64,000 nt of DNA. Source: Solimonas sp. K1W22B-7 (GTDB taxonomy: Bacteria > Pseudomonadota > Gammaproteobacteria > Nevskiales > Nevskiaceae). Position 1 is the stretch's first letter. Each line of letters starts with the position of its first letter. The translations under genes and the position numbers were made by a program. The DNA is taken from the NCBI RefSeq assembly GCF_003428335.1, contig NZ_CP031704.1:1550001-1614000 (forward strand), given 5' to 3'. The notes beneath the pieces are model-generated. The model was not told the DNA's origin, made no database searches, and saw only the letters and a program-made list of their open reading frames with translations. This document shows positions 40,319 to 53,084 of this stretch, piece by piece.

Positions 40319-41716
40319 TCAGGCAGGGAGGTCAGCAGGCCTGTCTGGCAGTGAACGGACACCGTCGAAAAAGCCGGGTACGAGTTCTGGCCAACCCATC
40401 TGACGGCGCAGCTTCTCGATGTGTTTCTTGTAGGCGTGAATTTCGATATAGCCCTTGGTGCGGTCGGAATCGATGAACCTGATTCCCCCCGACAGGTCCG
40501 GACGGTCCTCATGGAGGCGCCGCTCGAATGCCCTGGCGTTGTCGGGCTGGTGGTTCTGATCGTGCAGATAGTTCGCGACCAGTTGCGACACCCGGTCAAA
40601 GAGCGTGTAGGCACTGGAGTTGGTTTCCAGATAGCCCAGGCCGAACAGGTTGTTGTGCTTGGGATTGAAAGCGGTCAGATTCAGCTTCGGCCTGCCGCCA
40701 TCCCAGTCGAAATACGTCTCCGGCACATACGGGATGCTCATGTTGTAACCCGTGGCATACAGCACCAGATCGATCTTCTCGCGTGAACCATCGGCGAACA
40801 CCACGTGGTCGCCGTCGAAGCATCTGACGTCCCCCTTGGCCTTGATGTCGCCATGCTGCAGATAGTGCAGCAGCTGCGAATTGAGCAGCGGATGGGACTC
40901 GAACAGCCTGTGGTCCGGCCTGGGCATGCCCGTGCGCGAGGTATCGCCCAGGACCATGCGCAGCAGTAGGCTCATGGCCGGCCTTTGCAGCCACATCGGC
41001 AGCTGCGGGCCGCTGTTGGCGAACTCGTCTACCGGAATGCCGAAAACATGCTTGGGAATGAAATGGTAGCCACGACGCACGCTGACGAAAGCGGCATCGG
41101 CGTTCGCGGCGGCATCACAGGCGATGTCGGCGCCGGAGTTGCCTAGCCCGACGATCAGCACCCGCTTGCCGCGGAATTCGTCCGCGTGCTTGAACGTCAC
41201 GGAGTGGCGGATTTCGCCGTTGAAATGGCCTTCGTGCCGCGGCAGACGTGGATGCCAGTTCGTGCCGGTGGCACACACCACGGCGCGATAGCGCCGCAGC
41301 TCTCCGCTGTCGAGCCTGACCCGCCAGGACTCGCCGTCCTTGTCGACCTGTTCGATGGCGGTCCGGAAGCGAATCGCATCGTACAGGCCAAAGGCACGCG
41401 CGAAACTGCGTGTGTATGCGAGGATCTGCCGATTCGAGGGATAGTCCGGATAATCGTCGGGCATCGGAAAGTCGTAGAAGCCCGACGTGCCGCGCGAGGA
41501 GATGAAGTGCGCCGAGTGATACATCGGCGTGCCTGGATTGCTCAGATCCCAGATGCCGCCAACATCGTCGTGGCGCTCGAACTGATCGTAGGGAATGCCG
41601 CGTCGCTTCAATGCCCGGGCCACACTGAGGCCGGCCGGGCCGGCACCTACGATGCAGACCGCATCTGAACGATCGGTGATTTGGTTCTTCGGATCAGATT
41701 TAAACGTGGAGGGCAT
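40319..41716 (-). CDS. Flavin-containing monooxygenase (FMO/BVMO, MymA-like)
   Basis: A 465-residue class B flavoprotein monooxygenase. The FAD motif Gly24-x-Gly-x-x-Gly29, the FMO fingerprint Phe-x-Gly-x3-His-x3-Phe (near residues 170-180) and the NADPH motif Gly-Leu-Gly-Asn-Ser-Gly are all visible. The Phe ending of the fingerprint is the FMO or type II BVMO form, not the Trp of type I BVMOs. It would insert oxygen into a ketone (Baeyer-Villiger) or oxidise N or S. It follows the esterase gene by 27 nt in one transcript. The esterase would cleave the ester formed. The set esterase-FMO-divergent AraC resembles the mymA/virS locus of mycobacteria. Confidence 0.9.
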   Translation of the reverse strand: MPSTFKSDPKNQITDRSDAVCIVGAGPAGLSVARALKRRGIPYDQFERHDDVGGIWDLSNPGTPMYHSAHFISSRGTSGFYDFPMPDDYPDYPSNRQILAYTRSFARAFGLYDAIRFRTAIEQVDKDGESWRVRLDSGELRRYRAVVCATGTNWHPRLPRHEGHFNGEIRHSVTFKHADEFRGKRVLIVGLGNSGADIACDAAANADAAFVSVRRGYHFIPKHVFGIPVDEFANSGPQLPMWLQRPAMSLLLRMVLGDTSRTGMPRPDHRLFESHPLLNSQLLHYLQHGDIKAKGDVRCFDGDHVVFADGSREKIDLVLYATGYNMSIPYVPETYFDWDGGRPKLNLTAFNPKHNNLFGLGYLETNSSAYTLFDRVSQLVANYLHDQNHQPDNARAFERRLHEDRPDLSGGIRFIDSDRTKGYIEIHAYKKHIEKLRRQMGWPELVPGFFDGVRSLPDRPADLPA

Positions 41717-41743: not shown

Positions 41744-42643
41744 TTACAGCGATGCGCTGCGGTTCAGGTGGCCGCGCAGAAACGCTCCCAGGGTTTTCAG
41801 CGACTCCGCCCCTTCCTTGACGATGCCGGCCTGGACCTGGAAGTCATGCCACAGCCCCTCGAATTCACGCAGCTGCACGTCGACCCCGGCGACACGGGCG
41901 CGCTCCTTCAGGCTCAAGGAATCACTGAGCAGTATTTCCTCGCTGCCGACATGAATCAGCATGGGCGGCAAGCCTTTCAGGTCGGCATAGAGCGGCGAGC
42001 ACAGCGGGTGATCAAGGGGCAGGTCCCCGGTGTAGGCCCGAGCCCATCGTGTGACTCCGTCCGGCGTCAACTGGGGATCGCGCTGCACGTGAGTCCAGTA
42101 GGTCTCGCCTCGGGAAGCAAGATCCACCCAAGGGGAGATCAAGGCGAGCGCCACCGGCATCGGCTCGCCGGCGTCGCGCAATGCAACAGCAGTGGCGAGC
42201 GCCAGTCCTCCACCTGCCGAATCGCCAGCGATCGCGATGTGACGCAGCCCCTGCTTCCGCAACCAGCGGTAAGCACTAAGCGCATCTTCCAGCGCCGCAG
42301 GATGAGGGTGTTCGGGCGCCAATCGATAGTCCGGGACGTGTACCGCAACGCCTGACGCCTTGGCGAAACGACCTGTCAGGGCACGGTAGGCCCGCGCTGA
42401 CAAGATGTTGTAGCCGCCTCCATGCAGATAGAGAATGGCGAGGTCGGCGGCGGGATCGCCGACCGTCACACGCTCTGCAGGCACGCCATTCATGTTTTGC
42501 AGGTTTGCGCGCGCGCCTCGCTGACCGATCATCGCGACGCTGAGATAATGAGACCAGTGGCGCTGGAACCCTATGGAGAAGGTGGAGCCAAATACCGGCT
42601 TGAGCACGACACGCAATGTGCTGCGATAGATTTTCTTCAGCAT
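41744..42643 (-). CDS. HSL-family alpha/beta hydrolase (esterase), LipR-like
   Basis: A 299-residue esterase of the hormone-sensitive lipase family. The oxyanion-hole His-Gly-Gly-Gly (near residue 78), nucleophile Gly-Asp-Ser-Ala-Gly-Gly (near 146), Asp and His (Leu-Trp-His-Asp-Phe) are all present. The start at 42643 is set by alignment with the paralogue at 47449, which has the same length and the same Met-Leu-Lys start. It would hydrolyse the ester made by the monooxygenase downstream. The promoter region carries a 28-bp AraC-type site at 42705-42732. Confidence 0.92.
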   Translation of the reverse strand: MLKKIYRSTLRVVLKPVFGSTFSIGFQRHWSHYLSVAMIGQRGARANLQNMNGVPAERVTVGDPAADLAILYLHGGGYNILSARAYRALTGRFAKASGVAVHVPDYRLAPEHPHPAALEDALSAYRWLRKQGLRHIAIAGDSAGGGLALATAVALRDAGEPMPVALALISPWVDLASRGETYWTHVQRDPQLTPDGVTRWARAYTGDLPLDHPLCSPLYADLKGLPPMLIHVGSEEILLSDSLSLKERARVAGVDVQLREFEGLWHDFQVQAGIVKEGAESLKTLGAFLRGHLNRSASL

Positions 42644-42704
42644 GTCAGGCCCTGTCGCTCTTGAAGGTGTGAGCAACAGTGTCCGGATCGGGCGCCTGCC
42701 ATCC

Positions 42705-42732
42705 TTGACACGGGCAGACAATGTTTTGACAC
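42705..42732. promoter_or_regulatory. AraC/VirS-type operator: two GTGTCAA half-sites 21 bp apart
   Basis: On the minus strand, GTGTCAA at 42732-42726 and again at 42711-42705 are direct repeats with a 21-bp period, with TTGTCTG between them. The site at 46400-46427 matches it at 23 of 28 positions. In both cases 22 bases separate the proximal half-site from a GGA[CT]ACTG -10-like element. The distal end is 8 nt from the AraC gene start, so binding could also repress that gene. Confidence 0.8.
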
Positions 42733-42740
42733 TATCGGAC

Positions 42741-43751
42741 ATGTCTCTCATGGTGCGCGCCAGTGGCATACGGGCATACGCGGCGGTCATGCGCGGGCTC
42801 GGTGCCGACCCCGCGCCGTTCCTGCGGCGGCATCACATTGCGCCCAAGGCACTGGACGACGACGACGCACTGCTGGACCTGCGTGCCGTGGCGCAGCTGC
42901 TCGAAGCCAGCAGCGCGGACACCGGGTGTGGAGACCTCGGGCTGCGGATCGCCGAGAACCAGGATATCGGCATCCTCGGAAAGCTCGGCGTCATCATCCA
43001 GAGCGCGGCGACGGCCTCCGAGGCGTTCCAGATCGCCTCGCGATACATGTTCGTGCATAGCCAGGGGCTGGCGATGGCGATCAACCCGCACAGCGAGTCG
43101 ATCAAGGGGGCGGTCGAAATCGTCTTCGAGATCCGGCCGCCGCAGCGGCAGAACATCGATCTTTCCCTCGGCTTGACCCATCGCTTCGCCAGAGCGCTGC
43201 TGGGCGTGCACTACGACCTGAAGCTCGTCACGCTCCCGCACACGCCGGTCGCGTCGCTGAGCCGTTACCGTCGGTTCTTCGGCGCGCCGGTCATCGCCAA
43301 CCAGGAGCGCGCGGCCTTGCATATGCACGCAACTTCCCTGCGCGCCGAACTGCGGGGCGCGAATTCCGAGCTGCGACAGATCACGGAGGACTACCTGTCG
43401 CGGCACTTCCGCGTGCCCGGCGACGCCATCAGTACGCGGGTACGGCTCGCCCTGCGGCGCATGCTCGGCACGCCGCAGGCGACCATGGAAGGCATCGCGG
43501 CGATGCTCGCCATCCATCCACGCACCTTGCACCGCCGGCTCCAGGCAGAGGGCACCGGATTCGAGGACATCAAGGAATCCCTGCGCCAGGAGCTGGCGCT
43601 GCAATACCTGCGGGAGACCCAGGTTTCACTCGGCCAGGTTTCGGGGCTGCTCGGCTTCCCCGAGCAATCGGCGTTCACCCGATCAAGCCGGCGCTGGTTC
43701 GGCAAGACACCGTCGGCCATCCGGAAGGAATCCAGGTCCGGCCGGTTCTGA
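42741..43751 (+). CDS. AraC-family regulator, VirS-like
   Basis: A 336-residue AraC protein with an N-terminal Arabinose_bd-like domain (about 15-205) and C-terminal double helix-turn-helix (about 235-330). It has Met-Glu-Gly-Ile-Ala-Ala-Met-Leu-Ala-Ile-His-Pro-Arg-Thr-Leu-His-Arg-Arg and Leu-Gly-Phe-Pro-Glu-Gln-Ser-Ala-Phe-Thr-Arg-Ser. This is the domain plan of VirS and OruR. The start 42741 gives the normal length; an in-frame ATG at 42642 lies in the esterase gene. It is divergent from the esterase-monooxygenase operon and probably activates that operon and the one at 46478 through the repeated GTGTCAA sites. Confidence 0.9.
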   Translation: MSLMVRASGIRAYAAVMRGLGADPAPFLRRHHIAPKALDDDDALLDLRAVAQLLEASSADTGCGDLGLRIAENQDIGILGKLGVIIQSAATASEAFQIASRYMFVHSQGLAMAINPHSESIKGAVEIVFEIRPPQRQNIDLSLGLTHRFARALLGVHYDLKLVTLPHTPVASLSRYRRFFGAPVIANQERAALHMHATSLRAELRGANSELRQITEDYLSRHFRVPGDAISTRVRLALRRMLGTPQATMEGIAAMLAIHPRTLHRRLQAEGTGFEDIKESLRQELALQYLRETQVSLGQVSGLLGFPEQSAFTRSSRRWFGKTPSAIRKESRSGRF

Positions 43752-44323
43752 TACCGCTCAAGCGCCGTCATGGTTCACTTGCAAACCGCCAAGGACTTGC
43801 CCACCGCCGCCAAACAAATTGAGCACCCGTGGCCAGCCAAACTGACCACCGCCGCCACAGCAGCTGCCCACCGTGCCAGGCAGCTGACCAGCGCCACCCG
43901 CTTGCTGACCAAGAGCGGCAGCCTGTTGTCGTGATGCTCCTGCACCAGTGTCAGGTGGTCCCGCAAGGCGAAGGCGCGGTAGGCGTCGTGGGCTCGGTCT
44001 GTGGATGCTGCTGGGCTCGGCGCTGTATTTCTTCTACGCCCGCCGTCGCAGCCATCTGGCGCGCGCGACCTGTCCGCAGGCGACTCCCTATCCGTCCGCT
44101 ATTGCTCTGCCGCCGGCCTGGCCGATTCCATAGCATTCCCCCAACAAGCTGGCTGGCGCCCGGGACCCCCCTGCGCTGCAATGGAGGGGCGAGGCGCGTG
44201 CGGGCGGTTGCATCGACGCCGCCTGCGGCATCCCGCCGCATCCGGCCTGCTTGAACAGGAACGCGAACAAATCACCGCCGCGTCGCGGCGGCTGGCGGCG
44301 GCAGGACCGACCCGGATACATCG
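43752..44323. other. Intergenic region with two dubious small frames
   Basis: About 570 nt without a convincing gene. A 54-codon frame at 43771-43935 is rich in Ala, Thr and Lys and has no good ribosome binding site. Another at 43948-44133 encodes a short hydrophobic helix followed by Tyr-Ala-Arg-Arg-Arg and starts with GTG. Neither matches a family I know. The region may be the remains of a gene lost by deletion. Confidence 0.35.
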
Positions 44324-46138
44324 ATGAACGCAGACTTCAAGCAGGCTTGTGCTCCGCTCGCGCTGGCGCTCGCTGTATTGCTGGCGGCCTGCGGCGACAG
44401 CAGCAAGCCAGGCGCGCTGCCCGGCGGCGGATCCGGCACCGTCATCGGCGCCGGCGAGCAGCTCAAGCCCGACGGCCAGGGCAGGCCCTGCCGGTCGGGT
44501 CTGGGGCGGACTTACGACGTCACCATCCCATCGCCGCTCGGCAACGGCGAAACCATCGCGGCGACCGTGTTCGAGCCGGCGCTGATGGATTGCAGCAAGA
44601 AATATCCGCTGGTGCTGGCCGCCGCCGGCTGGAGCAGTCCGCGCCAGACCTCGCTCGTTCCCACGGACCCGCAGACGATCGCCTTCCTTCCCTTTGCGCC
44701 CCTCGACGTGCTGGTGGCCGCCGGCTATGGCGTGCTCAGCGTGGACAATCGCGCCTTCGGCCAATCCGGCGGCAGGGCGCGCCTGCAGGATCCGGACTAC
44801 GAAGGCGCCAACGTGGTACGCGCGGTCGATTGGGCGGAAGCGAATCTGGACTGGCTCGCCTACGGCCCCAGCGAGGATGGCAGCGATCCGCACAACCTCA
44901 TGCTCGGTTCCATCGGCCCCTCTTACGGCGGCGCTTTCCAGCACATGCTGCTGGCAATCGATCCGAAGCAGCGCCTCGACGCGATCGTGCCTTCCGTCAC
45001 CTGGCACGACCTGAGCTACAGCCTCGCCCAAGGCGGCGTATTGAAGGAGCAGTGGCTGCACGGATTGCACGACCAGGTCAAGGACACCCCCGAGAAGCTC
45101 GATCCCTTCCTGCTGCAGCTGATGGATCAGGCCTTCGCCGACAACCGGCCCGATCAGCAGGCATTGGACTTCCTGCGCTACCACGGCCTGGGCTATTTCT
45201 GCGGCGGCCGGCGCGTCGCGACCAACGGCGGTTCCGGCACCGCGCCGCGCCTGGCGCCACGCTATCCGCCGAAGGTCAACGCGCTCTACATCCAGTCCTC
45301 GCGCGACACCATTTTCAACCTCAACGAGGCGCTCGCCAACTACGAGTGCCTCAAGCCCAACGGCGGCGACGTGCGTATCTTCACCGACCAGATCGGCCAC
45401 AACTCGACCGGCCTGCTGGTGCAGCTCGGGGTCCTCGCGTTCGCGTTTCCCCGGGACCCGGGAATCATCTACCAGCCCGATCCGACCTCCACCGGCGTCC
45501 TCTGCGGCGGCACGACGACGATCCAGGCGGTTCTGGCCTTTTTCAACGAGCACCTGAAAGGCATGGGCGGGCAGGCCGACCAGGTGCTCGGCACCCAGCC
45601 CATCTGCCTGAGCCTTACCGCGGTCGATTCGGTGAAAGTGGACGCGATCCAGCGTGGCGGCCGAGGCTTCGACATCGCCGCCGACGCACCCGGAAACACC
45701 GTCACCGTCGGCCAGGACAATAGCCAGACCACCACGGTGCCGCTGCTGACGGTGAGCGATGTGAGCAACGTGCTCGCCGGCATCCCCACGCTGGACGTGA
45801 CGCTGACCGATCCCGACAACCCGTCCGCCCGCGGCGGCGACACCATCATCTACGTCGGCATCGGCCAGAAGCACCTGCTCGGCCTGACGCCCTGGGATCT
45901 GGTCGACAACCAGCTCACGCCGCTGCGCGGCCTGGGCCATCACCGGGTCGAGATGAGCGGCGTGCTGGAGCGCGCCCAGGTCGGAGACCAGCTCGGCCTG
46001 ATGATCTTCGGCGCCAACGACAACCAGTATCCGACCGCTGGTTTGACCGTCGTGCCGCCGCACGCCGTGCGCGTGCGGGTCCAGGGGACGGTGCAGCTGC
46101 CGCTGCTCGGCAACCTGCTGCCGGCGCTGACGCCTTGA
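44324..46138 (+). CDS. Lipoprotein alpha/beta hydrolase (CocE/NonD-like)
   Basis: A 604-residue exported hydrolase. A lipoprotein signal ends at Leu-Ala-Ala-Cys (Cys near residue 24), followed by a Gly/Ser linker. The alpha/beta-hydrolase core has Asn-Arg-Ala-Phe-Gly-Gln-Ser-Gly-Gly and the nucleophile Gly-Pro-Ser-Tyr-Gly-Gly. A C-terminal beta-rich domain (about 440-600) resembles the X-Pro dipeptidyl-peptidase/CocE jelly roll. The substrate is unknown; an ester or amide acted on outside the cytoplasm is likely. The start is preceded by little ribosome-site signal but fits the signal peptide. A small open frame begins 1 nt after its stop. Confidence 0.82.
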   Translation: MNADFKQACAPLALALAVLLAACGDSSKPGALPGGGSGTVIGAGEQLKPDGQGRPCRSGLGRTYDVTIPSPLGNGETIAATVFEPALMDCSKKYPLVLAAAGWSSPRQTSLVPTDPQTIAFLPFAPLDVLVAAGYGVLSVDNRAFGQSGGRARLQDPDYEGANVVRAVDWAEANLDWLAYGPSEDGSDPHNLMLGSIGPSYGGAFQHMLLAIDPKQRLDAIVPSVTWHDLSYSLAQGGVLKEQWLHGLHDQVKDTPEKLDPFLLQLMDQAFADNRPDQQALDFLRYHGLGYFCGGRRVATNGGSGTAPRLAPRYPPKVNALYIQSSRDTIFNLNEALANYECLKPNGGDVRIFTDQIGHNSTGLLVQLGVLAFAFPRDPGIIYQPDPTSTGVLCGGTTTIQAVLAFFNEHLKGMGGQADQVLGTQPICLSLTAVDSVKVDAIQRGGRGFDIAADAPGNTVTVGQDNSQTTTVPLLTVSDVSNVLAGIPTLDVTLTDPDNPSARGGDTIIYVGIGQKHLLGLTPWDLVDNQLTPLRGLGHHRVEMSGVLERAQVGDQLGLMIFGANDNQYPTAGLTVVPPHAVRVRVQGTVQLPLLGNLLPALTP

Positions 46139-46312
46139 ATGGAGGAGCGCATGGCGATGCTGGTGGCATCCCTACGGGTGCAGGACGAGGCGACGCTGGC
46201 GCAGATGGAGGCGGACAGGCGCTATCCAGCCCTTCCCATTTTGCTTTTCTTACAGAGCGGCGGTGATCGATGGAGCAGCGGGCAGTCTGATTGCCAGCCC
46301 TGGTCAGCTTAG
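46139..46312 (+). CDS. Possible small protein of 57 residues
   Basis: A short frame beginning directly after the hydrolase stop (TGAATG). The first 30 residues (Met-Glu-Glu-Arg-Met-Ala ... Asp-Glu-Ala-Thr-Leu-Ala-Gln-Met-Glu-Ala) look like a real amphipathic helix, while the tail is unlike protein. It could be the remnant of a truncated gene. I do not recognise it. Confidence 0.3.
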   Translation: MEERMAMLVASLRVQDEATLAQMEADRRYPALPILLFLQSGGDRWSSGQSDCQPWSA

Positions 46313-46399
46313 TTGCCGTTGCTGGTCAGCGAGCGCTCGCAGGGCGGCCGGAAATGCCCTGATACCGCTGGTGTACAGGACGAAGGTCGCTGTCCGTCA

Positions 46400-46427
46400 G
46401 TGTCAAAAATTTGTCTGATGGTGTCAA
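46400..46427 (+). promoter_or_regulatory. Second AraC/VirS-type operator upstream of the oxidoreductase operon
   Basis: GTGTCAA at 46400-46406 and 46421-46427 repeat with the same 21-bp period and the same TTGTCTG centre as the site at 42705-42732. GGATACTG at 46448-46455 holds the likely -10 element (GATACT). The proximal half-site would cover the -35 position, the usual place for class II activation by AraC proteins. Confidence 0.8.
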
Positions 46428-46477
46428 TTTCAGGGCGTGGGCAGTCGGGATACTGCTTCCGTTCTGGAGGACACCCG

Positions 46478-47434
46478 ATGAAAAGAATCCTTGTTGTTGG
46501 CGCCGGCGCCGTCGGCGCCGTTTATGGCTGGCACCTGCATCGCGCGGGGCACGAGGTGCATTTCTTCGTCAAGCCGAAGTACCGCGACTCGGTGTCCGCG
46601 GGACTCACGCTGCACCGCCTGCGCTACCGCGCCACGCAGCGCGAAGACTGGAGCGGGGTGCGCGTCGTGACCGATCCGGCCGCCGTTGCGCGCGGGCACT
46701 GGGATCAGGTGTGGCTCACCCTGTCCTCGGATGCGCTGCGTGGCGAACTGGCGGCACAGCTGCTCGCGGCGATCGGCACGGCAACCGTCGTCTGCCTGCA
46801 GCCGGACCTTGAGGACGCCGACTATGTGCGCACGCGTGTCCGCGCACCGGAACAGGTGGTCCACGGCCTCATCACGCTCATCAGCTACCAGTCGCCGCTG
46901 CCGGGGAAGGCGGGACCTTCGGGCATCGCCTACTTCCTGCCGCCGTTCACGCCGACGCCGCTGTCCGGAACGCCGGAGCGGGTGAGCGGCGCGGTCGACG
47001 CACTGAGAGCCGGCGGCATGGCCGCGCGTGCCGTGCCGGACGTGGCGCCCGGGACAGCGGCCGCGACTGCGCTCATGCAGCCGATGATTGCCGCGCTGGA
47101 AGTCGGCCACTGGCGCTTGTCCGCCTTGCCGGGCAGCGAACCCCTGCGCATGGGCCTGCGTGCGGTGCGCGAAGCACTGGCGATCGCGCGGAAGACCGCG
47201 GGAGCGCGGACGGCGGGGTTCCTGCCGTTACTCCGGCCCTGGACATGGCGGCTGCTCCTGCCGCTCGCGGCGCGCCTGCTGCCGCTGCCGCTGGAGTCCT
47301 ATCTGCACTACCACTTCTCCAAGGTCGGCGCGCAGACGCGACTGATGCTGGAAACCTACATCCGCCTCGGCCGGACGCATGGCCTCGAGACGCAGTCCTT
47401 GCAGAAGCTGCGGCAAGCCCTGCCATCCCTCTGA
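46478..47434 (+). CDS. Ketopantoate reductase (ApbA/PanE)-like oxidoreductase
   Basis: A 318-residue NAD(P)-binding protein. It opens with the Rossmann motif Ile-Leu-Val-Val-Gly-Ala-Gly-Ala-Val-Gly and continues in the ApbA/PanE pattern, though the Lys and Glu of true ketopantoate reductases are not obvious. A distinctive C-terminal hydrophobic segment (about 250-275) is unusual for PanE. In this operon it more likely reduces or oxidises a ketone/alcohol than serves in pantothenate synthesis. The start is supported by GGAGG eight bases upstream. Confidence 0.8.
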   Translation: MKRILVVGAGAVGAVYGWHLHRAGHEVHFFVKPKYRDSVSAGLTLHRLRYRATQREDWSGVRVVTDPAAVARGHWDQVWLTLSSDALRGELAAQLLAAIGTATVVCLQPDLEDADYVRTRVRAPEQVVHGLITLISYQSPLPGKAGPSGIAYFLPPFTPTPLSGTPERVSGAVDALRAGGMAARAVPDVAPGTAAATALMQPMIAALEVGHWRLSALPGSEPLRMGLRAVREALAIARKTAGARTAGFLPLLRPWTWRLLLPLAARLLPLPLESYLHYHFSKVGAQTRLMLETYIRLGRTHGLETQSLQKLRQALPSL

Positions 47435-47448
47435 TCCGGATACCTGAA

Positions 47449-48348
47449 ATGCTGAAGTCATTCCTGGGCGGCGCCGTGCGCGTCGGCATCAAACCGGTCC
47501 TGCGCCCGAACTTCTCCGTCGGATTCCAGCGCCGCTGGGTCAACGGACTGACGTCCATGCTGCCTGGGCCGCGGGGGACGCAGGTCCGCCGGCAGACCAT
47601 GGCCGGCCTGCCGGCGGAGTGCGTGAGCGTCGGCGAGCCCGCAGCCGGCCACGCGATCCTGTATCTGCACGGAGGGGGTTACAACATCGGATCGGCGCGG
47701 GGCTACCGTGTCATCACCGGGCGCATCGCGCGAGCGGCACAGGTCTCTGCCCACACACCGGACTACAGGCTGGCCCCCGAGCATCCTCATCCCGCGGCGC
47801 TGGATGACGCGGTCGCTGCCTATCGGTGGCTGAGGGAACAGGGCGTGCGCAGCATCGCGCTGGCGGGCGACTCGGCCGGCGGCGGGCTCGTTCTTGCCAC
47901 CGCACTGGCCCTGCGCGATGCCGGCGATCCGATGCCGGCCGCGCTGGCCCTGATTTCCCCATGGACGGATCTCGCCGCCCAGGGCGAGACCATGAAGACC
48001 CACGCAGCGCGTGATCCGTCGCAGTCCCCGGCCGGTCTCGCCAGGTGGGCACGAAACTATACGAACGGCCTGCCCCTCGAGCATCCGCTGTGCTCTCCGC
48101 TCTACGCCGACCTGAAAGGGCTGCCGCCGATCCTGGTCCATGTCGGAAGCGAGGAGGTTGTCCTCAGCGATTCCTTGCGGCTGCGGGATCGCGCGGTCGC
48201 TGCCGGCGTGGACATCCAGGTACGCGAGTTCGAAGGTCTCTGGCACGACTTCCAGCTGCACGCCGGCATGCTCGCGGAAGCCGATGAGTCGCTCGCGGAA
48301 CTCGGGCAGTTCCTGCGCCGGCACCTGAACGGCCACGTGCTGGTGTAG
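47449..48348 (+). CDS. HSL-family alpha/beta hydrolase, paralogue of 41744-42643
   Basis: A 299-residue esterase with His-Gly-Gly-Gly-Tyr-Asn, Gly-Asp-Ser-Ala-Gly-Gly and Leu-Trp-His-Asp-Phe, all aligned without gaps to the esterase at 41744. The two share long identical blocks (Pro-Asp-Tyr-Arg-Leu-Ala-Pro-Glu-His-Pro-His and Leu-Cys-Ser-Pro-Leu-Tyr-Ala-Asp-Leu-Lys-Gly-Leu-Pro-Pro). A duplication that spread to both operons of one regulon is the likely origin. It lies 14 nt after the oxidoreductase. Confidence 0.92.
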   Translation: MLKSFLGGAVRVGIKPVLRPNFSVGFQRRWVNGLTSMLPGPRGTQVRRQTMAGLPAECVSVGEPAAGHAILYLHGGGYNIGSARGYRVITGRIARAAQVSAHTPDYRLAPEHPHPAALDDAVAAYRWLREQGVRSIALAGDSAGGGLVLATALALRDAGDPMPAALALISPWTDLAAQGETMKTHAARDPSQSPAGLARWARNYTNGLPLEHPLCSPLYADLKGLPPILVHVGSEEVVLSDSLRLRDRAVAAGVDIQVREFEGLWHDFQLHAGMLAEADESLAELGQFLRRHLNGHVLV

Positions 48349-48390: not shown

Positions 48391-49278
48391 ATGTCTGTCG
48401 AATCGGGAATGCGTCCTGGCCTCTATGCGGGGCATCGATTTCTGGGCTGGCTGTCCGGCGTCAACGCGAGCGCTGCCGAGCGGCCCCGGCCCGTGGACGT
48501 CGAAGGGTTTCGCGCAGCCCAGCGCCTGGCCTATGACTGCGTCGTCGCGGTCGGCAAGGAAATGCAGGAGGGCGACTCGGAACTGGAGGTCACTGAACGT
48601 CTGCAAGCCTGGCTCGATGCGCATGGAGCGCCGAACTTCCTGCATCGTCCGTTCGCCTGGTTCGGCGAGCACAGCCGCTTCTCCGGCTACGACAGCTTCC
48701 ACGACTTCCATCCCGGCGACCGCAGGCTGAAGGCAACGGACATCGCGATCCTGGACGTGTCGCCCATCGTCAACGGATACATCGGTGACGTCGGCTATAC
48801 CCTGAGCCTGTCGGCCTCGCCAGCGCTGCGCAAGGCACAGCGCCTCCTGCGAGAGCTGCGCGAGGAAATACCCGGTTTGTTCATGTCCAGCCGCAGCACC
48901 GCGCAGATCTGGCAGGCGGTCGATCGCCGGATCGCCGATGCCGGATACACGAATTGTCACGCCCTGTACCCGCTCAGCGTGCTCGGCCACCGCGTCTACC
49001 ACGTGACCGAGTCGAAGGACAGCGGCCTGCGACTGCCGCTGCGCAGGTTCGGGGTGAACTGGTTCAGCGCCACCGCCCAGCGTGCCTTCCTCTCGCACGG
49101 CCTCTTCAAGGAAGTGCTCAATCCCGATCATCGCGGCAGCAAGCTCGGGCTATGGGCCATCGAGCCGCACGTGGGAGGAGCGGGCTTCGGTGCGAAGTTC
49201 GAGGAAATCCTGGTGGTGGAGGATGGCCGCGCCTACTGGCTCGATGACGAAGTTCCGCACCTGAGAAATATCGCATGA
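48391..49278 (+). CDS. M24 (Xaa-Pro aminopeptidase-like) metallopeptidase family protein
   Basis: A 295-residue pita-bread-fold protein of the M24 family. The metal ligands are recognisable: Asp in Leu-Asp-Val-Ser-Pro and in Gly-Asp-Val-Gly-Tyr-Thr, His in Leu-Gly-His-Arg-Val-Tyr-His, Glu in Ala-Ile-Glu-Pro-His, and Glu in Phe-Glu-Glu-Ile-Leu-Val-Val. The N-terminal creatinase domain is missing, as in methionine aminopeptidases. Family members may be peptidases or have lost that activity. Its place in an operon for ketone/ester turnover is odd. It overlaps the next gene by 4 nt. Confidence 0.85.
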   Translation: MSVESGMRPGLYAGHRFLGWLSGVNASAAERPRPVDVEGFRAAQRLAYDCVVAVGKEMQEGDSELEVTERLQAWLDAHGAPNFLHRPFAWFGEHSRFSGYDSFHDFHPGDRRLKATDIAILDVSPIVNGYIGDVGYTLSLSASPALRKAQRLLRELREEIPGLFMSSRSTAQIWQAVDRRIADAGYTNCHALYPLSVLGHRVYHVTESKDSGLRLPLRRFGVNWFSATAQRAFLSHGLFKEVLNPDHRGSKLGLWAIEPHVGGAGFGAKFEEILVVEDGRAYWLDDEVPHLRNIA

Positions 49279-49655
49279 CGACCTGGCTGAAGTTTGTCGC
49301 TGTTTCCATGTTCCTCGGCGTCCTCGTGGAAATCCTGGCGCGCGCGCTGCGTCTGTGGGTCTACACGCCGCCGCGCATGGTGGCAGTCAACGTCCTGGTC
49401 ACCGTCGGGCTGCTGTTCGGCACGCTCGCCTGGCTGACCCAGGGCAGCGCCCTGCCGGTCCAGTTCCTGTGCGGCGCGATCATCGGCATCGCCTATGAGG
49501 CGCTGAATTTCGCCGGGCTGAACGCCTGGACCTTCCCCGGCAACAGGCTCGGGCCCCTGAAAGGCCGGACGGCCTTGACGATCGGAGTGGGCATGGCCTG
49601 GGGCCTGTATCCTGTGCTGGCCACGCTGCTGGTCCGCTTCCTGGCGCGACCGTGA
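49275..49655 (+). CDS. Small integral membrane protein
   Basis: A 126-residue protein with about four transmembrane helices (about 5-25, 38-58, 62-82 and 98-120) and almost no loops. I do not recognise the family. It overlaps the M24 gene (ATGA) and the next gene (GTGA) by 4 nt each, so it is a fixed operon member. A transport or membrane-remodelling part is possible. Confidence 0.75.
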   Translation: MTTWLKFVAVSMFLGVLVEILARALRLWVYTPPRMVAVNVLVTVGLLFGTLAWLTQGSALPVQFLCGAIIGIAYEALNFAGLNAWTFPGNRLGPLKGRTALTIGVGMAWGLYPVLATLLVRFLARP

Positions 49656-50497
49656 TCCCGATCCGCCCTTCCCAACTCAGGTCGCCCACGGTCCGCACCG
49701 TGGCGAGCCTGATCTGGAACGCCTTTGCCGGGCCCCTCCGCGATCCGAAAGGGCTGCTCCTGGGCAGCGCGATCGTTGCCCTCATGCTCTGGGGCTATCA
49801 CGGCAATCTCGAACTGCTGGGGATGCTGTGGGACGGGTGGGCCGGACCGGGCAGCGACCCATCGGCACGCGCGAGGATCATCCCGGGGATTGCCTGGGAT
49901 CAGGAGTGGCTGAGTTTCTGGGCAGGCGCCCTGCTGGTCGTCGGAATCCCCGCGATCATGATCCGATACGTGTTCAAGTTGCCGCTGCGCGAGTTCGGGC
50001 TCGGCCTGCCGCCGCGCGGCCTCCGCAGGCTCGCATTGATGACGGCGGCCGTACTTTTCGTCGCCTCTTTCGGCGCGTTCTACCAGTATGGCAACGACCC
50101 GGCCATGGCCTCGACGTATCCGTTCTTCCGCGACTTCGATGGAGTCGGCCAGTTCGTGGTCTACGAGCTGGGGTACCTGCCGTTCTTCCTGGCGATCGAG
50201 TTCATCTTCCGCGGCTACCTGCTCTTCGGCCTGTACCTGCTGCCGACTGGCCAGGCCCCCGCGGGCAATGCCGGCGGGATGGGGCAGCGCTATCCCCTCG
50301 ACTGGCGGATCCTGGTCCCGATGCTCGCCTACACGGCCTGGCACCTCGGCAAGCCGCTGCCGGAGCTGTGGGGTACGCTGTTCTGGGGCCCGGCCGCCAG
50401 TGCGATCGTGCTCGCGACGCGCTCGATCTGGCCGGTCGTCATCGTCCACTGGCTGCTCAACGTGTGGATGGACCTCGTCATCTGGCAACAGTGGTAG
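49652..50497 (+). CDS. CPBP-family intramembrane protease (GTG start)
   Basis: A 281-residue multi-spanning protein. It carries the motifs of the CPBP (CAAX-protease and bacteriocin-processing) family: Glu-Phe-Ile-Phe-Arg-Gly-Tyr-Leu-Leu (the first Glu of the usual Glu-Glu pair replaced), Ala-Trp-His-Leu-Gly-Lys-Pro and His-Trp-Leu-Leu-Asn-Val-Trp. These are the catalytic Glu and His positions. Six to seven transmembrane helices are predicted. CPBP proteins cleave prenylated or other membrane proteins; the substrate here is unknown. It starts with GTG inside the overlap with the previous gene. Confidence 0.82.
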   Translation: MIPIRPSQLRSPTVRTVASLIWNAFAGPLRDPKGLLLGSAIVALMLWGYHGNLELLGMLWDGWAGPGSDPSARARIIPGIAWDQEWLSFWAGALLVVGIPAIMIRYVFKLPLREFGLGLPPRGLRRLALMTAAVLFVASFGAFYQYGNDPAMASTYPFFRDFDGVGQFVVYELGYLPFFLAIEFIFRGYLLFGLYLLPTGQAPAGNAGGMGQRYPLDWRILVPMLAYTAWHLGKPLPELWGTLFWGPAASAIVLATRSIWPVVIVHWLLNVWMDLVIWQQW

Positions 50498-50515: not shown

Positions 50516-51325
50516 ATGAACGCATCCATTCGTCCTTCTCACAAACCCGGTCGCACGCTGATCACCGGAGCCTCCTCGGGCATCGGCGCCGAGTTCGCCC
50601 GGACCTTCGCCCGGCATGGGCACAGCCTGATCCTGGTCGCACGTCGTGCCGACAAGCTCGAAGCCCTGGCGCAAGGACTGCGGCAGCAGTACGGGATCGC
50701 GGTCGAAGTCATCCCGCAGGACCTCGGCCAGGCCGGGGCCGCCGAGCAGCTGCATCGGGAGGTCACGCAGCGCGGACTGGCGGTCGATATCCTGGTCAAC
50801 AACGCGGGCCTGCTTTTCCGTGGCACATTCCCGGAAACCAGGCTGGCGGAGCAGCAGGCCCTGCTCCAGCTCAATATCACCGTGCTGACGGAACTGACGC
50901 ATCTCTTCCTGCCGGCCATGGTCGAGCGCGGCCACGGCCGTGTCCTCAACCTTGCGTCCAGCGCGGCGTTCCAGCCGCTGCCATGGACCGCCACCTATGC
51001 GGCGAGCAAGGCCTACGTGCTGTCGTTCTCCGAAGCGCTGTCCATCGAGCTGAAGCACCGCGGCGTGTCGGTCACCGCCCTGTGTCCGGGCTTCACGGAA
51101 ACCGACATGATCGCCCAGCAGGGAGCCAAGACCTTCAAGATCCCCGGAGTCAGGAACCTGACTCCAGCGAAGGTTGCGGAGCAGGGCTACGCGGCCTGCA
51201 TGGCAGGCACGCCGGTGTACATCAATGGCGCCGTCAATCGCGCGCTGGTCCTGATGGGTCAGCACCTGCCGCGCTGGTTGCAGCGCCTTTCGGCCGAGTG
51301 GTTCGCCAGGGCGGCCATGCGCTGA
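50516..51325 (+). CDS. Short-chain dehydrogenase/reductase, SadH-like
   Basis: A 269-residue classical SDR. The cofactor motif Thr-Gly-Ala-Ser-Ser-Gly-Ile-Gly is near residue 18 and Asn-Asn-Ala-Gly near 96. The catalytic Ser and Tyr-Ala-Ala-Ser-Lys are near 150-168. It would interconvert a secondary alcohol and a ketone, the natural step before the Baeyer-Villiger-type enzyme at 40319. A SadH-type SDR is also part of the mycobacterial mymA operon. It ends the AraC-controlled operon. Confidence 0.92.
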   Translation: MNASIRPSHKPGRTLITGASSGIGAEFARTFARHGHSLILVARRADKLEALAQGLRQQYGIAVEVIPQDLGQAGAAEQLHREVTQRGLAVDILVNNAGLLFRGTFPETRLAEQQALLQLNITVLTELTHLFLPAMVERGHGRVLNLASSAAFQPLPWTATYAASKAYVLSFSEALSIELKHRGVSVTALCPGFTETDMIAQQGAKTFKIPGVRNLTPAKVAEQGYAACMAGTPVYINGAVNRALVLMGQHLPRWLQRLSAEWFARAAMR

Positions 51326-51836: not shown

Positions 51837-51978
51837 ACCTGGTGCGCCACGAACTGGCCGCCTCCTACTTGCGCGATCCACGCCTACAAATCGTTGAAAT
51901 TTCCCTGCTGCTCGGATACTCGGAGCACAGTGCGTTCACGCGGGCATTCCGCGAATGGACGGGGGTAAACTCCTATCG
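51830..51978 (+). pseudogene. AraC-family regulator fragment (C-terminal HTH)
   Basis: About 48 codons encode the final part of an AraC DNA-binding domain: Arg-His-Glu-Leu-Ala-Ala-Ser-Tyr-Leu and Ile-Ser-Leu-Leu-Leu-Gly-Tyr-Ser-Glu-His-Ser-Ala-Phe-Thr-Arg-Ala-Phe-Arg. The effector domain is absent and the end has drifted. It abuts the DUF1302 relic, so a deletion joined two genes. Confidence 0.72.
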
Positions 51979-52079
51979 AGGCGCGGCTGCGGCTGCAGGC
52001 AGCATCCAGAGATGCGAGTGCATAGCTGCTGTTCCGATAGTTTGGATGCTGCTGGAACATTGGCACCACAGGCACAAGT

Positions 52080-53084
52080 CTATGCCGAAGATGGCCCGAA
52101 CTTCTTCCGGTAAGCACTGGGGGACACGCCTTCTTGCTTGGTAAAGGCACGGGTGAAGGTTGTCCGGTCGGCAAAGCCTAGCTTCTCCGAGATCGACGAA
52201 ATATCAAGGGCAAGATCACGCAGCATCCGCTTGGCTGACCGGAACCGTATCTCAGTGTGAATCTCACGGAATGAGGTGCCTTCTTCCGATAGCTTCCGCT
52301 GCATAGCGCGGACACTCATTTCGAGTTGCGCGCAAACCTGCTCCCCTGTCATTTGAGGATTCTGGTCGAGCAGCGACTCGATGGCGGCTCTGAGCGGGCT
52401 TCCACTCGCGCAAAGCTGCAGCCTGCGGTCGAAGATCATGCGTGACTGAGCCTGCACCGCGGAGGAGGCCACCGGTGACTTCATGTCGAGAAAACGTGAG
52501 GAGAACCTCAGGGCGTTGACGTCGGCACCGAATACCGGGGATGTATAGAAATACTTCCGGTAGTTGGAGACCGATGTCTGGGGGCTGTGGCTGAGGGAAA
52601 TGCCGAAATCCACGGGCTGGGAAACCACGCCTTGGATCGTTCGCATCAAGACCAAGATCACCATCTCGATGACTCCCGGCGCTTCGATCCGCGAACCGAG
52701 TCGATGCAGGTCGACTTCGATCTGCATATGGGAGTCCGTCAGCTGATGGTCCAGATGCAGCTCCGGCATGATGATTCGCGGGAACTCCTTCAGGAGCGGG
52801 ATGGCGTCCCGCAGGGATCGGGCCGAAATCAGCATGGAGTTAATTTCGGGGGCTGCCTCGTAGACGCAGGCCGAGCCGATCACCATCGGAAAATAATCAC
52901 GGCTTGAAAGCTGGTGGGCGAAATCGTAAATGCGGGCGAGGGTGTGCATCTCGATGCGCATCCGGTGTTCGGATACGACATATCCCTCCGGCGACACGCG
53001 CCTCAAGAGCTCCTCGAGGTTGAAGCCACACGCGAGGCCGGCTCGTGACAAGATCGAGAACCCTTCAACGTCGATGCGCAGCAA
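52080..53084 (-). CDS. AraC-family regulator (TTG start)
   Basis: A 334-residue AraC protein. The N-terminal 200 residues resemble the Arabinose_bd type. The C-terminal helix-turn-helix pair (about 235-330) has Gly-Glu-Gln-Val-Cys-Ala-Gln-Leu-Glu-Met-Ser-Val-Arg-Ala-Met-Gln-Arg-Lys and Leu-Gly-Phe-Ala-Asp-Arg-Thr-Thr-Phe-Thr-Arg-Ala-Phe-Thr-Lys. The start codon is TTG with AGGGGG about eight bases upstream; a TAA closes the frame soon before it. It is divergent from another AraC gene, with twin palindromic sites in between. Confidence 0.87.
   Translation of the reverse strand: MLRIDVEGFSILSRAGLACGFNLEELLRRVSPEGYVVSEHRMRIEMHTLARIYDFAHQLSSRDYFPMVIGSACVYEAAPEINSMLISARSLRDAIPLLKEFPRIIMPELHLDHQLTDSHMQIEVDLHRLGSRIEAPGVIEMVILVLMRTIQGVVSQPVDFGISLSHSPQTSVSNYRKYFYTSPVFGADVNALRFSSRFLDMKSPVASSAVQAQSRMIFDRRLQLCASGSPLRAAIESLLDQNPQMTGEQVCAQLEMSVRAMQRKLSEEGTSFREIHTEIRFRSAKRMLRDLALDISSISEKLGFADRTTFTRAFTKQEGVSPSAYRKKFGPSSA

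Follow-up and report, generated by a model that had tools for sequence, protein, structure and literature searches.

A VirS-like regulator of Solimonas sp. K1W22B-7 probably controls two operons through matching direct-repeat operators

The window analysed here, a stretch of 64,000 nucleotides from Solimonas sp. K1W22B-7 (contig NZ_CP031704.1), holds a gene for an AraC-type regulator with a direct-repeat site at its start and a second, very similar site ahead of another set of genes. An earlier note on this DNA had proposed that one regulator reads both sites. We asked whether this is so, which operons would be joined in this way, and how such a site would be recognized. The genes concerned, in window positions, are these:

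40319-41716, minus strand: FMO-type flavin monooxygenase, second gene of operon 1, with the fingerprint FNGEIRHSVTFK
41744-42643, minus strand: esterase 1 (Abhydrolase_3, hormone-sensitive-lipase type), first gene of operon 1, divergent from the regulator gene
42741-43751, plus strand: VirS-like AraC/XylS-family regulator (PF12625 and HTH_18)
46478-47434, plus strand: divergent ketopantoate-reductase-like (ApbA) protein, first gene of operon 2
47449-48348, plus strand: esterase 2, operon 2, starting with the ATG at 47449
48391-49278, plus strand: M24-family metallopeptidase-like protein, operon 2
49275-49655, plus strand: small hydrophobic protein without a family match, by eye a membrane protein, operon 2
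49652-50497, plus strand: CPBP/Rce1-like protein, operon 2
50516-51325, plus strand: short-chain dehydrogenase/reductase, last gene of operon 2

The gaps between the genes of operon 2 are at most 42 nt. The start of esterase 1 was chosen by hand within a longer open frame, and the query used for esterase 2 began one codon before 47449. A search of the 85 genomes with esterase 1 gave esterase 2 as the best match (66% identity). Between the regulator gene and operon 2 lies an S15/CocE-type hydrolase (44324-46138) whose start looks lipoprotein-like by eye; its gene has no motif match at the start. Just after operon 2, a short open reading frame (51842-52144, plus strand) that ends, by eye, in an AraC-like HTH overlaps the end of a diverged PF12625 regulator gene (52080-53084, minus strand); it looks like a gene fragment.

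The fingerprint of type I Baeyer-Villiger monooxygenases is FxGxxxHxxxWP. The window monooxygenase carries FNGEIRHSVTFK at this place, and we did not class it as a member of that group. Among the FMO-like reading frames of the other loci that we fetched, two of which come from this same genome, FxGxxxHPQxWP was present in 18 of 24, another W motif in two, and none in four. Set against this usual form, the fingerprint makes the window locus look like a variant of the usual pairing between such regulators and enzymes of the Baeyer-Villiger type.

The reading frame of the regulator is open up to 42642, and we placed its start at 42741 by homology and by register with its relatives. Its product scores 129.7 bits for the PF12625 domain (cut-off 27.6) and 59.8 bits for the AraC HTH (cut-off 33.6), and its closest relative in the PDB is Mycobacterium tuberculosis VirS (8rcx, E 2.9e-54, query residues 4-328 of 336). 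The best named equivalog model is QhpR (NCBIfam NF049968, E 3.2e-51); the score of 174.2 bits lies below the model's cut-off of 250, and we do not regard the protein as a QhpR. This one genome of 5.37 Mb gave 46 PF12625 matches, several with a recognizable candidate operator upstream.

The two sites had been described as 28-mers at 42705-42732 (minus strand) and 46400-46427 (plus strand) that agree at 23 of 28 positions, each with two GTGTCAA boxes 21 bp apart, and all of this proved correct. When the surroundings were aligned, the similarity was found to extend 9 bp further upstream, giving a 37-bp block with TGTC at positions 1, 11, 22 and 32. The earlier note had seen one box in each repeat. 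Its GTGTCAA part is real, but each repeat holds two boxes, and the TGTCYG had been missed. The operator unit is 16 bp long, with box A (TGTCYG) followed by box B (TGTCAA), which starts ten bp after box A, and it recurs with a period of 21 bp, so that the consensus reads TGTCYG-N4-TGTCAA-N5-TGTCYG-N4-TGTCAA. Both window operators have the boxes TGTCCG-N4-TGTCAA-N5-TGTCTG-N4-TGTCAA. They lie, with their -10-like elements, as follows:

42705-42741, minus strand: operator 1, with A1 at 42741-42736, B1 at 42731-42726, A2 at 42720-42715 and B2 at 42710-42705
42678-42683, minus strand: GACACT, -10-like element of the esterase-monooxygenase operon, 21 nt after operator 1
46391-46427, plus strand: operator 2, with A1 at 46391-46396, B1 at 46401-46406, A2 at 46412-46417 and B2 at 46422-46427
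46449-46454, plus strand: GATACT, -10-like element of the second operon, 21 nt after operator 2

Operator 1 adjoins the regulator gene, with box A1 overlapping the first base of the start codon, and operator 2 is about 3.7 kb away. The two are identical at 30 of 37 positions and at all 24 box positions; all seven differences fall within the 13 spacer bases. Around them the sequences are unrelated, with agreement at chance level upstream (11/60), in the spacer to the -10 (6/20) and downstream of the -10 (7/40), which argues that the pair is not the remnant of a recent duplication.

The earlier note had placed a shared GGA[CT]ACTG 22 bases after each site; the gap is in fact 20 bases in both. 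In an alignment of 26 sites, positions 21-28 after the operator read [GC]nAnnnTG (A at position 23 in 0.81 of the sites, T at 27 in 0.81, G at 28 in 0.69), and both window sites, GGACACTG and GGATACTG, fit this pattern. The operator columns of the same alignment were picked with the motif, so their conservation is partly built in. If a 17-bp spacer is assumed, the -35 element starts on the last two bases of the operator. A scan for consensus sigma-70 promoters listed none at either operon start, which suits an activator-dependent promoter but is not proof of one.

On the strand of the regulator gene, positions 42705-42743 read TTGACA (the complement of box B2), 17 nt, and then GACACT. This arrangement would put the transcript start at the ATG and suggests a leaderless regulator mRNA that begins inside the gene's own operator. 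The GACACT fits TATAAT at three of six positions, and the consensus scan does not list this promoter.

The genome scan that the earlier note had proposed turned up no crowd of randomly placed site pairs. All four exact copies of the half-site TGTCYGN4TGTCAA in the 5.37-Mb genome lie within the two window operators; allowing one mismatch adds 13, a number close to that of the reversed control (11). The 37-bp family pattern with up to three mismatches gave three matches, the third at the start of a PF12625 paralogue, and its reversed control gave none. The shorter 28-bp pattern with up to two mismatches matched 11 times, with only the two window sites exact; because the reversed pattern was as frequent (12 matches), the other nine look like background, and at this setting the 28-bp pattern is uninformative beyond the two exact sites.

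Operators of the same build stand beside related regulators. With up to five mismatches, the four-box site was present on the divergent strand for 22 of 28 regulators picked by protein similarity, 18 of these sites lying within 3 nt of the regulator start, and for none of 28 shuffled upstream regions in 100 rounds. This count is partly circular, since the motif was framed on the window sites and on several of these same loci, and most of the relatives used in framing it are also among the 28. Less circular are the reversed-motif control and the count of AraC neighbours. Across 85 genomes of the order, the motif search found 36 sites in 24 genomes and its reversed control found none, and for 32 of the 36 matches an AraC HTH gene lay no more than about 1,250 nt away on the opposite strand. 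Only four do not face an AraC gene, site 2 among them, and a second operator acting in trans would accordingly be unusual. The other three (L105:7113-7149, L095:7367-7403 and L111:7480-7516), all from other genomes, may be operators that act in trans there.

In the related loci the outer box lies mostly on the regulator start codon. The same arrangement occurs with one mismatch in Pseudoruegeria, with four, four and three mismatches in two Cupriavidus records and one Burkholderia record, and also in Mycolicibacterium alvei. In two Rhodococcus relatives one repeat is clear and the second degenerate, and for a Sphingomonas relative no more than a weak candidate site was seen. A motif-free test of repeat periods favoured 21 bp (13 of 46 promoters at 12/16 or better, versus 0-5 for periods of 14-20 and 22-29), to which we give little weight because several of the 13 lie far from the gene start in GC-rich sequence. 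Two partial genes, L020 and L031, were left out of the 28 regulators, the 26 aligned sites and the 138 upstream regions described below, and L029 and L032 were also left out of the alignment.

Footprinting of site 2 in other species failed because the first gene of operon 2 has no relatives to compare. Searches for them returned nothing from the remaining 84 genomes of the order (E 1e-15), from the remaining 368 genomes drawn from the class (1e-30) or from the plasmid collection. For the M24 gene, a search of 369 class genomes at 1e-40 returned only a 38% paralogue in its own genome. Relatives of 37-38% occur in seven plasmid records, and in the three of these that were examined (L144, L147 and L148) the motif with up to four mismatches was not beside the M24 relative.

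Which regulator reads site 2 can be approached through the boxes themselves. We scored 138 regulator upstream regions, 46 of them from this genome and with the window regulator present twice, using a score that rewards box B and the repetition of box A while leaving the letters of box A free. A score of at least 13 was reached by 57 of the 138 regions and by one of 138 shuffled ones, 129 of which scored 9-11; some of the 57 sites are not at a gene start. Because box B is rewarded, its conservation here is partly built in, and the -10 columns and the letters of box A were not picked in this way. Box B is common to many candidate operators of the PF12625 genes of this genome, and box A varies by group (TGTCTC, TGGCCG, TTTCGC, TTGCAT and others). 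The GTGTCAA part is the half common to many regulators of the family, and TGTCYG appears to be the more specific half.

The first recognition helix of the window regulator reads HPRTL-H-RRL. At the position of this His, 24 of the 26 regulators in the site alignment have Gln, as does M. tuberculosis VirS, and one has Arg. Among the 55 distinct sites scoring at least 13, the sixth base of box A is C for 35 of 44 Gln regulators, for none of five His regulators and for one of six Arg regulators (Fisher p 0.001 for Gln versus His, a guide only, as the His and Arg cases are few and the genes are related). G at this base is found in seven of the 55, and both window sites carry it. The A1 boxes of the five His cases are TGTCCG, TGTCCG, TGTCCT, TGGCGA and TGGCGA, so that two of the five read TGGCGA instead of TGTCYG. 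Across the candidate operators of the 46 PF12625 promoters in this genome, the next best likeness to site 2 is 18 of 24 box positions.

The proposal that one AraC regulator and two operons are joined by a promoter-adjacent direct-repeat site is supported by the conservation of the site at related regulators, the near-fixed spacing to a -10-like element, the uniqueness of the site in the genome and the match between helix and box A. Together with the identity at 24 of 24 box positions, these lines of sequence evidence point to one regulator for both operons, and we consider it very probable that the VirS-like protein encoded at 42741-43751 binds both 37-bp operators in the manner of XylS and controls both operons. 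By analogy with XylS, one monomer would occupy each repeat unit, with HTH1, the one assigned to box A, on that box and HTH2 on box B. Two monomers would sit side by side on the two repeats, the downstream one contacting RNA polymerase at -35. With a 17-bp spacer, where the -35 covers the last two operator bases, the bound dimer would be at the position of a class II activator and could, in the presence of ligand, help RNA polymerase to initiate at both operons. Operator 1 touches the start codon of the regulator gene, and for this reason the regulator very likely acts on its own gene too; this effect would probably be a hindering one.

Two known systems come closest to this arrangement. XylS binds two TGCA-N6-GGNTA repeats, of which the second overlaps the -35 by two bases (excerpts of PMC4225500 and PMC5481539). 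The window sites resemble the XylS-Pm system of the TOL plasmid in having two promoter-adjacent direct repeats, each made of box A, 6 bp and box B, here TGTC-N6-TGTC twice at 21 bp, and they would share the two-base overlap if the spacer is 17 bp. They differ from it in their boxes, TGTC/TGTCAA versus TGCA/GGNTA; the N-terminal domain of the window regulator is PF12625. The other system is that of VirS itself, the nearest PDB relative. An esterase and a dehydrogenase are likewise encoded in the mymA operon, which runs divergently from virS. In M. tuberculosis, transcription of virS and of mymA, the monooxygenase operon, goes up together when a VirS ligand is supplied (PMC13234193, in part); the main text of that paper makes no mention of a binding site, footprint or direct repeat. 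In the window, by comparison, operon 1 starts with an esterase, has two genes rather than seven, is joined by a second operon in trans, and encodes a monooxygenase with FNGEIRHSVTFK rather than FxGxxxHxxxWP. No description of the operator was found in the literature searched, where subscription journals were poorly covered, so an earlier description may exist.

Of the other readings, the one to be taken most seriously, though we think it unlikely, is that the regulator acts as a repressor of both operons, released by its ligand, and not as an activator. In a mammalian reporter assay, the ligand that raises mymA transcription lowers the signal from the VirS operator (PMC13234193, in part), and this combination leaves room for repression. 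The same source reports that a virS loss-of-function mutant is slightly less, not more, susceptible to ethionamide and does not respond to the drug, which speaks for a need of VirS and against repression. The site geometry, moreover, is that of XylS, a positive regulator (excerpt of PMC4225500), and the scan listed no sigma-70 consensus promoter at either operon start.

That a different PF12625 paralogue binds site 2 seems to us improbable. The genome has paralogues in plenty, many with box B in their candidate operators, and the Arg-type regulator at genome position 2692734 has a candidate operator with TGTCCG as box A twice; yet that operator agrees with site 2 at 18 of 24 box positions and differs in box B, whereas site 1 agrees at all 24. 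The nearby gene at 52080-53084, beyond operon 2, has no such operator upstream, its best score of 11 lying within the 9-11 of most shuffled regions. Least credible of all is the idea that site 2 is functionless and resembles site 1 only because the stretch was duplicated together with an esterase gene. The close relationship of the two esterases speaks for such an event, but similarity beyond the operator and the -10 does not exceed chance, the 13 spacer bases within the operator agree at only six, and the gene adjoining site 2 is not esterase 2.

Control of both operons by the one VirS-like regulator is therefore the reading that we retain. The regulon is of a known kind, VirS-like regulation on a XylS-like operator, and its unusual points, as read from the DNA, are the second operon in trans and a legible match between regulator and box. 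From gene content we would guess that the monooxygenase, the two paralogous esterases and the dehydrogenase carry out oxidation and ester cleavage of a hydrophobic substrate that doubles as the signal.

More tentatively, and with rather more doubt than belief, we suggest that PF12625 (VirS-like) regulators across phyla share one operator grammar, a 21-bp direct repeat of box A and TGTCAA whose outer box lies over the regulator's own start codon. Box B would be the shared part; box A would act as the address, with a Gln/His/Arg switch in the first recognition helix to read it. Since the complement of TGTCAA is the -35 consensus TTGACA, the same 37 bp may also serve as the leaderless promoter of the regulator, in which case a single binding event would both activate the target and shut off the regulator. 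The layout is common to many related regulators, and the shared grammar is the useful part of the finding: the operator of a VirS-like regulator can perhaps be read from sequence in its location, its shared half and its specificity half. Such a reading rule would help to assign targets to PF12625 regulators, with 46 matches in this genome, before any experiment.
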